Assembly: GCA_002869585.1 (NCBI GenBank)
Contig: PKUO01000052.1
Coordinates: 1-64,000, forward strand
DNA length: 64,000 nt
Direction: 5' to 3'
Source of the DNA: Sedimenticola sp.
GTDB lineage: Bacteria; Pseudomonadota; Gammaproteobacteria; Chromatiales; Chromatiaceae
The position numbers and the translations under genes are program-made. The notes under the pieces were generated by a model. That model was not told the DNA's origin. It saw only the letters and a list, made by a program, of their open reading frames with translations, and ran no database searches. The first letter of the stretch is position 1. The number at the start of each line of letters is the position of its first letter. Positions 7,061 to 42,735 of the stretch are shown here, piece by piece.

Positions 7061-7858
7061 ATGACCGACATCAGCCCAGCAACCATTCTGGTGATCGCAG
7101 GCCACGACCCCTGTGGTGGCGCAGGCATACAGGCCGACATCGAAACCATCCGCGCCCTGGGCGGTTTTCCGGCGACAGTGATCACCACGCTGACAGTACA
7201 GGACAGCTGTAACATCAAGGAGATCTACCCGGTTCCGGCAGACCTGATCAAAAGGCAGGCCGAGGCGATCCTGCATGACTACCCGGTCGCGGCCATCAAA
7301 ATCGGATTACTCGGCAGCGCCGAGAATGCCCATGCGGTGGCACAGCTGCTTGCTGAATTTCCGGCGATCCCGGTTGTCCTCGACACGGTGCTGGCCGCAG
7401 GGGGCGGCGCCGAACTATCCACCAACAAGCTCCTCGACACGATCGTCAGAGAGCTGCTGCCGCACACCCTGCTGACCACCCCGAACTCCGTGGAGGCGCG
7501 GCGCCTGACCCACGAAAACAGCCTGGAAGTCTGCGCCAACACCCTGTTGCGCGCAGGGGCCCAGGCGGTCCTGATCACCGGCGGGCATGAAACCAGCGAT
7601 CAGGTTATCAACACCCTGTATCAGGAACACCAGCCGGCCGTCAGTCAATCCTGGACAAGGCTACCCGGTAATTATCACGGCTCTGGCTGCACACTGGCTG
7701 CCGCAATCGCCACGCACCTGGCCCAGGGGAAATCCATCACCGCTGCCGTCGGCGCCGCGCAACAGTTCACCTGGGAAACCCTGAACCACAGCTATCAGCT
7801 AGGACATGGACAACTGATCCCCAACCGCTGTTATAACCAGAATCGGCATGATGCATAA
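7061..7858 (+). CDS. thiD: Hydroxymethylpyrimidine/phosphomethylpyrimidine kinase
   Basis: ThiD phosphorylates HMP and then HMP-P to HMP-PP, the pyrimidine donor for thiamine phosphate. The 265-residue protein shows the ribokinase-fold motifs: AGHDPCGGAGIQADI near the N-terminus and the catalytic anion-hole motif HGSGCTLAAAIA near residue 210. LLTTPNSVEARRL is typical of ThiD. Its 3' end overlaps thiE by 11 bases and thiE in turn overlaps hemL, so the three are translationally coupled. No TPP riboswitch is visible in the gap upstream, unlike thiC at 39755-41593. Function and family are clear. Confidence 0.95.
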   Translation: MTDISPATILVIAGHDPCGGAGIQADIETIRALGGFPATVITTLTVQDSCNIKEIYPVPADLIKRQAEAILHDYPVAAIKIGLLGSAENAHAVAQLLAEFPAIPVVLDTVLAAGGGAELSTNKLLDTIVRELLPHTLLTTPNSVEARRLTHENSLEVCANTLLRAGAQAVLITGGHETSDQVINTLYQEHQPAVSQSWTRLPGNYHGSGCTLAAAIATHLAQGKSITAAVGAAQQFTWETLNHSYQLGHGQLIPNRCYNQNRHDA

Positions 7859-8495
7859 ACTCCGCCCTGGGCTCTACGCCATTACCGACGCCAGTCTCGC
7901 CACAGATATTGCCCTCGACACCCAGGTAGAACTCGCCCTGCAGGGCGGGGCGCGTGTGATCCAGTACCGCGACAAGAGCCACAACCCGCCAGGCCGCCTG
8001 CGACAGGCGTCGGCCTTGCTACAGCTTTGCCGGAGGTACGGTGTCCCACTGATCATCAACGATGACATCGCACTGGCAGCGGAGATTGGGGCAGACGGGG
8101 TGCATCTCGGCAAGGATGATCCGCAAATCGTTGATGCGCGACAGGCCCTCGGAGCGAATGCCATCATCGGCGTCTCCTGCTATAACCGGCTGGAACTGGC
8201 CATCGAGGCCGAGCAGTCGGGGGCCAGTTATGCCGCCTTTGGCCGTTTTTTCCCCTCCAACAGCAAACCTGACGCCAGCCATGCCGACATTTCAACGTTG
8301 CAACAGGCAACCGGCCTGCTGCGCATACCGGTAGTTGCCATCGGCGGTATAACCCCGGAAAATGGTGCCGCATTAGTCAAGGCGGGTGCCAGCATGCTGG
8401 CGGTGATACACGGCGTGTTTGCCCAACCGGATATTCCGGCTGCCTGCCGGCGCTTCAACCAGTTATTCGATATCAAAGAGGATTCATTGTCATGA
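7848..8495 (+). CDS. thiE: Thiamine phosphate synthase
   Basis: ThiE couples HMP-PP with thiazole phosphate to give thiamine phosphate. The 215-residue TIM-barrel protein has GLYAITD at the N-terminus, the diphosphate/Mg-binding motif QYRDKSH, the conserved [15 protein letters not shown] and the phosphate-binding VVAIGGI at the C-terminal side. There are two adjacent ATG codons at the start (7848 and 7851); either gives a normal protein. The gene overlaps thiD by 11 bases and hemL by 4, so it is the middle of a tight operon. Together with ThiC and ThiD it supplies most of the pyrimidine branch and the joining step of thiamine synthesis. Confidence 0.95.
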
Positions 8496-39754: not shown

Positions 39755-41593
<1,839 letters not shown>

Positions 41594-41669
41594 CTATTCG
41601 GAGAGCTTTGACGTTTGGGCAATGAATTCCTCGGGGATAGCGCTCATCTGTTTCTCCAGTTGCTAACAG

Positions 41670-41760
41670 GGGAAGCGCGCGTAGCGGTCGCTTCCCTACA
41701 CCGGCATTACCCGGATCAGGTTCAAAGGGACTCTCTCAGCCCGAAAGGGCACCCCCAGCT
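41670..41760 (-). promoter_or_regulatory. TPP (THI-box) riboswitch with anti-P1 expression platform
   Basis: On the minus strand the conserved core is present: GGGGTGCCC, then CTGAGA, then ACCTGATC and GGGTAATGCC ending in GTAGGGAAGC. It lies 23-113 bases before the thiC ATG at 41647. The aptamer's 3' end GGGAAGCG (41689-41696) can also pair with CGCTTCCC (41670-41677), giving an alternative hairpin that competes with helix P1 near the ribosome-binding site, a translational or Rho-type switch. No T-run follows. The remaining stretch 41794-42072 holds no gene I can support. Confidence 0.95.
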
Positions 41761-41764
41761 AAAG

Positions 41765-41793
41765 ATTACAACCTGGTCACCGCACTCCTGCAA
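41765..41793 (-). promoter_or_regulatory. Putative thiC promoter
   Basis: On the minus strand TTGCAG (41788-41793) and TGTAAT (41765-41770, five of six to consensus) are spaced by 17 bases. The predicted start near 41758 coincides with the first bases of the riboswitch, which supports the call. Confidence 0.6.
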
Positions 41794-42072
41794 ACCTACC
41801 TGAAACCCACTGTCCGGTGGATTTCTTCAGCAATATGAAAGCAGGTATTCGCCTCTCCGTTTCCGAGAGGGATTTATATATCGAATCACCATTTGGCAAG
41901 TATCAGGTCTTCTACCATTCTAACAAACTCCACTGGAATTTCCCCACTCATTTAGTCAGGGCTTTAGCGCTTTATCCGCCCTGGATTTTCAGCCAAAGGC
42001 TTGCCTGACGCGCCCAAACTGCGTAGGCTACGGGGTTGTTTCTGAACCAGATTTATACGACCGGGGAACCAG

Positions 42073-42735
42073 ATGATCTCTGCCAATCTTGACCAAGCAC
42101 GCTTCAACATGGTTCATCAGCAGATCCGCACTTGGGAAGTGGTGGATCAGCGCGTCATCGACCTGCTTGATGAGCTGCCGCGTGACCACTTTGTCCCTGA
42201 TGCGTACAAAAACCTGGCCTACTCGGATACCGAGATCCCGATAGGCAATGGACAGCATATGATGGCGCCGAAGATCGAGGCGAAACTGTTGCAGGCACTC
42301 AACATCCAGGCCTCTGACCTGATTCTTGAGATCGGCACCGGCAGCGGCTTCCTGACCGCCTGCCTGGCTAAACTCGGCAGCCGGGTCATCAGTCTCGAGA
42401 TCGATGACAGCTTTATTCCCAGCGCACAGGCAAAACTTGACGGGCAGGGCATCAAAAACGCGGAAATCCGCCATCTGGATGGGCTCGCCGCTGCAGCTGA
42501 AGGCGCTCCTTTTGACGTGATTGCCGTTACCGGCTCACTCCCCCAGATAAACGATATCCTCAAGCAGCAGCTGAAGGTGGGCGGCAGGATGTTCATCGTC
42601 ACCGGCGAATCCCCGGTCATGGAGGCGCAACTGGTGACCCGGGTGGGCGATGATGACTGGCGCACCGAAGGGCTGTTTGAAACCGAGCTGGCCGTACTGA
42701 CCAACGCACCGCATAAATCCAGATTCAGCTTCTGA
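42073..42735 (+). CDS. Protein-L-isoaspartate O-methyltransferase family protein
   Basis: The 220-residue protein has the PIMT-type N-terminal region (MVHQQIRTWEVVDQRVIDLL, LPRDHFVPDAYK), the motif DTEIPIGNGQHMMAPKI, and the SAM-binding LEIGTGSGFLTACLAKLG. PIMT repairs isoaspartyl residues in aged proteins. This form, with IPIGNGQHM in place of the usual LPIGYGQTIS, belongs to the divergent PIMT-like group often found next to rhodanese or tolC and waaA genes. It may not act on isoaspartate. It converges with waaA, and a perfect 12-bp hairpin spans their 3' ends. Confidence 0.85.
   Translation: MISANLDQARFNMVHQQIRTWEVVDQRVIDLLDELPRDHFVPDAYKNLAYSDTEIPIGNGQHMMAPKIEAKLLQALNIQASDLILEIGTGSGFLTACLAKLGSRVISLEIDDSFIPSAQAKLDGQGIKNAEIRHLDGLAAAAEGAPFDVIAVTGSLPQINDILKQQLKVGGRMFIVTGESPVMEAQLVTRVGDDDWRTEGLFETELAVLTNAPHKSRFSF

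Follow-up and report, generated by a model that had tools for sequence, protein, structure and literature searches.

The analyses described below reveal that thiC of this Sedimenticola sp. genome, on the minus strand of the window (the whole 64,000-nucleotide stretch of DNA that was analyzed), is divided by an in-frame TAG into a 17-codon leader and an otherwise unbroken body, both of which match the uninterrupted gene of relatives. The stop is either a single-base nonsense change in a gene of vitamin B1 synthesis or a base error, and as such is an ordinary kind of variant. We tentatively favor, with somewhat less than an even chance, a recent nonsense change tolerated by termination–reinitiation at the GTG abutting the stop, in a thiC that is intact apart from the stop and is preceded by a TPP riboswitch.

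The interrupted frame and its counterparts in relatives

The coding strand reads ACTGGAGAAACAG-ATG at 41647, MSAIPEEFIAQTSKLSE, TAG at 41596–41594 and GTG at 41593–41591 (Table 1). Beyond the TAG the same frame stays open from the GTG to a TAA at 39757–39755, giving 612 amino acids, and in the string TAGGTG the stop-to-start distance is 0 nt. An unbroken frame from the ThiC family start is thus not found in this gene.

Table 1 Features of the thiC locus in the window
Feature	Position	Strand	Basis
TPP riboswitch aptamer, intact, upstream of thiC	41676..41766	-	match to Rfam RF00059 over model positions 1–105 of 105, scoring 69.3 bits (gathering score 54.3)
First 17 codons of thiC (MSAIPEEFIAQTSKLSE), turned into a minicistron that has a GGAG site of its own	41597..41647	-	residues match those of relatives; site pairing -6.4 kcal/mol
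In-frame TAG; GAG or another sense codon in relatives	41594..41596	-	sequence and alignment of relatives
GTG abutting the TAG, putative site of restart; relatives have an ordinary valine codon in the aligned position	41591..41593	-	no Shine-Dalgarno pairing
ThiC body of 612 aa, counted from the GTG, no other stop or frame break; ThiC-associated and radical SAM domains	39755..41593	-	translation, profile matches

The site was compared across 49 distinct relatives, that is, loci of at least 80% identity and near-full coverage drawn from 139 loci (109 + 30). The named relatives were the best 80 of 591 candidates from a scan of the collection; some records are present twice in the 109-locus set, and the named and unnamed sets are not independent, because some records occur in both. 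At the position of the TAG, the 49 relatives carry GAG (32), GCG (8), CAG, GAA and GCC (2 each), and GCA, GAC and GAT (1 each), and none carries a stop. Relatives show MSAIPEEFI-KT--LSEEVTRPFPNSRKIYV as an uninterrupted reading, with LSEEVTRPF or LSEEVTKPF around the site and the codon there mostly GAG. The GTG is present at the same place in 20 of the 49, as a valine codon. The reading frame is open for at least 16 codons 5' of the ThiC body at 107 of the 109 loci, and the other two (L027/L029) are one locus recorded twice, from a 40%-complete genome of 2170 contigs in which thiC is in pieces; the four pieces match in different frames (G013:C311), which looks like an assembly error. Apart from this broken locus, the leader is open at the loci of both sets, the 109 and the 30. 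A wider family search matched thiC in 179 of 194 genomes. Among the 149 other matches listed, all frames have at least 629 codons, against 612 in the present gene (the table does not give the end at which they differ), and two have an internal stop, namely a TAA at residue 345 in G145 and a TAG after residue 605 in G103. Matches to the locus in viral contigs and in plasmids were neither found nor expected.

As judged from this alignment, the match on the two sides of the stop is beyond chance, in that relatives carry the same leader joined stop-free to the same body, and the TAG is peculiar to this genome, its simplest origin being a GAG codon in which G became T. Re-reading of the sequence confirmed the coordinates and translation given in the initial annotation for the start, the TAG and the GTG; its deduction of GAG to TAG from an expected SEEVTKPF was right, and the ATG at 41647 does have the good GGAG site that it described. 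It had also raised the case of relatives sharing a TAG preceded by unrelated residues, which the stop-free, leader-bearing relatives described above do not present.

Each of the 17 leader residues is used by relatives at the same position (A10 in L008, K14 in L039), and S2, F8 and S16 are constant in all 50 leaders, duplicates included. Since every leader residue recurs in this way and the body is free of further breaks, either the stop arose recently or it is a base error. The leader is conserved in near relatives and variable farther out, and since it is conserved among the near ones, its loss may not be neutral.

The body is complete against ThiC models, scoring 614.2 bits with PF01964 (the ThiC radical SAM domain; cut-off 25), 107.6 bits with PF13667 (the ThiC-associated domain; cut-off 27) over residues 5–81, beginning at model position 2 of 81, and 1057.5 bits with NF006763 of NCBIfam (cut-off 650) over residues 4–575, beginning at model position 3 of 564. 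Alignment with the nearest solved structures, 3epm and 4s2a, starts at residue 2 of the GTG product. The C-terminal cluster motif of ThiC is CX2CX4C, and the translation contains it as CSMCGPNFC. A product begun at the GTG would be predicted to lack the leader only, which precedes both the Pfam and the NCBIfam ThiC models. Codon differences that are synonymous only outnumber those that change an amino acid against each of the six relatives compared. Compared with 103 distinct bodies, seven residues break common columns, and three of the seven, G, A and W, are residues 6, 8 and 9 after the GTG (window positions 41567–41578, minus strand), all unusual for the wider family; W9 is absent from the 94 sequences that have a residue at that column. 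We considered this cluster as a trace of relaxed selection and rejected it, as position 6 is variable and A occurs at position 8 among nearer relatives, leaving only W9 unusual, though unexplained.

Decoding of TAG and the other thiamine genes

TAG is an ordinary stop in this genome. Release factor RF1 is present (543.8 bits), and 12 frames of at least 200 codons in the window end in TAG; nine of the ten scanned have Pfam domains, and one of the TAG-ended frames encodes a RapA-like protein whose last domain extends to residue 960 of 962. Contig-wide, TAG terminates 28 of 101 long frames, which were chosen by length alone, so that some may be antisense. One frame chosen in this way is indeed antisense, lying opposite thiC. 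No CUA anticodon was found at any of 44 tRNA places (ARAGORN read 43; the remaining one, truncated by a contig end, has CGG as judged by eye). Recoding of TAG is therefore not supported. Suppression of UAG or readthrough into full-length ThiC, one of the outcomes offered by the initial annotation, is likewise not supported and seems very improbable, the more so as none of the 49 relatives shares the TAG. What speaks for it is that the frame continues unbroken past the TAG and that the tRNA set is incomplete, because Ile-GAT and Ala-TGC are absent among the 44, so that a further tRNA gene could be absent from the assembly as well. Low basal readthrough is general.

The other thiamine genes checked are intact. 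The search for another thiC proposed in the initial annotation was run on the genome and returned no second copy, and the TPP riboswitch of Table 1 is the only one found (150 of 263 first-look candidates scored). Intact thiD and thiE are adjacent at 7061–8495 on the plus strand of the window, thiG is intact on the same contig as thiC, and a second match to PF02581 occurs elsewhere. The ATG of thiE (7848) overlaps the end of thiD (7858), the next frame reading as hemL, and the frame ahead of thiG reads as thiS, from its Gly-Gly end. With a single thiC, a single TPP riboswitch found and intact thiD, thiE and thiG, loss of ThiC should be costly, and a working thiC is likely, though not proven, to be needed by the cell. 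These same intact genes, together with the intact riboswitch and ThiC body and the lack of a second TPP riboswitch among the candidates scored, weigh against a truly impaired thiC, that is, a young pseudogene in a lineage that obtains thiamine or its pyrimidine part from outside. We regard such impairment as unlikely, although the GTG lacks a Shine-Dalgarno site and thiamine genes do decay through premature stops elsewhere, as reported for thiH of Sodalis glossinidius (PMC3091646). Its further support, that the only same-genus genome compared (G001; 680 contigs) gave no thiC match, was rejected: that genome also lacks an orthologue of the adjacent methyltransferase gene, having a 35% paralogue only, and its DNA showed no match to the 4.8-kb locus when 40 of 56 candidates were scored. 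Because the neighbor is missing too and the 4.8-kb locus is unmatched, the absence of thiC there is probably an assembly gap.

Possible restart at the GTG, or an error in the sequence

In the first step of the predicted course of events, a one-base change, most simply G to T in GAG, would have turned codon 18 of thiC into TAG and left the rest of the gene intact. Ribosomes would still start at the ATG at 41647 and terminate at the TAG (41596–41594), and a fraction of them would restart at the GTG touching the stop, yielding ThiC that lacks only the leader. Since restart would depend on translation of the leader, riboswitch control of thiC would persist, and synthesis would remain coupled to the riboswitch. 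The yield, however, is probably below normal because the GTG has no Shine-Dalgarno site: the computed pairing is 0.1 kcal/mol (that is, none), compared with -6.4 kcal/mol at the ATG. In E. coli, removal of the Shine-Dalgarno sequence was fatal to reinitiation in one of five gene pairs and caused 60–90% loss in three of five (PMC6728339). The zero distance, on the other hand, may be favorable, as reporters in E. coli, measured against the native overlap, showed reinitiation lowered by 5, 20 and 70% with a gap of 2 nt, and by 80–90% in two pairs and wholly in one with a gap of 38 nt (PMC10666635). Counted for restart are the match of both leader and body to relatives on the two sides of the stop and the otherwise unbroken body; counted against it is that a base error would account for the intact leader just as well. 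The GTG represents neither a selected start nor an adaptation, because it is the family's valine codon, the same in 20 of the 49 relatives.

It is also conceivable, though quite improbable, that the stop is fixed in the lineage, so that the 17 codons form a leader cistron under riboswitch control and thiC arises solely through GTG restart; this would amount to a natural split of one gene into a coupled pair. RNA structure around the site was examined as well. A hand-picked hairpin of 34 nt around the TAG (-10.0 kcal/mol, z -2.19) was rejected, 11 of the 49 relatives folding to -10 or lower there, and a fold of 211 nt is no better than its shuffles (z 0.20). Within 41550–42080 no sigma-70-like promoter was found, whereas the plus strand of this interval has two terminator-like sites.

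A base-calling, assembly or strain-mixture error, which would leave the organism itself with a normal thiC carrying a sense codon, is a serious possibility, and we consider it nearly as likely as restart at the GTG. The genome is a draft of 109 contigs, the surroundings of the TAG are intact, and the leader residues are unrelaxed. Moreover, isolated stops do occur in such data, because the thiC of G145, alone among the 149 other matches listed, has an isolated mid-gene stop; this TAA (L200, G145:C36) stands at residue 345, which is glutamine in the window's protein, and may itself be a mutation or a base error. Against an error, the site has no homopolymer or other direct sign of one. When the 181,789-base contig was put through a crude coding scan, two broken-gene candidates emerged, the second near the contig end; the scan is blind to stops in short leaders, left thiC unflagged and was trained on frames picked by length alone. 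The broken-gene candidate at L162:16260–17747 (minus strand) was rejected, since it consists of ordinary neighbors reading as argB and slmA, the latter in the same frame after a TGA.

The finding matters mostly for annotation. Gene-calling software would either place the start of this thiC at the GTG or mark the gene as a pseudogene, and both would hide the ancestral start upstream and its riboswitch. If the stop is fixed and the gene expressed, this thiC would offer a neat natural example of restart making a nonsense mutation tolerable. A literature search, judged from listings of results alone, turned up no paper on this thiC or its stop site.

Comparison with known systems

The gene described here is worth comparing with the enzyme family and the translational systems that it resembles. 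With phosphomethylpyrimidine synthase, ThiC (PF01964 and PF13667; NF006763), it shares a body that is complete against the models, and differs in the stop placed between a 17-residue leader and that body. In E. coli lacI, reinitiation follows early amber mutations, and a working protein can survive an early nonsense codon if an in-frame start follows. The lacI cases were tested in the laboratory, whereas the present one is a natural, or apparent, variant. Resemblance to the thiamine-gene decay of Sodalis glossinidius lies in the premature stop of thiH, read in that report as ongoing inactivation (PMC3091646); several thi genes are described as pseudogenes there, whereas the other thi genes checked here are intact. 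Finally, termination–reinitiation at touching or overlapping cistrons, as reported in PMC6728339 and PMC10666635, has in common with the present case the zero distance between stop and start and the good start site of the leader. In clear distinction from those pairs, the junction considered here, known from its sequence, lies inside one ancestral gene, and its putative second start has no Shine-Dalgarno site.
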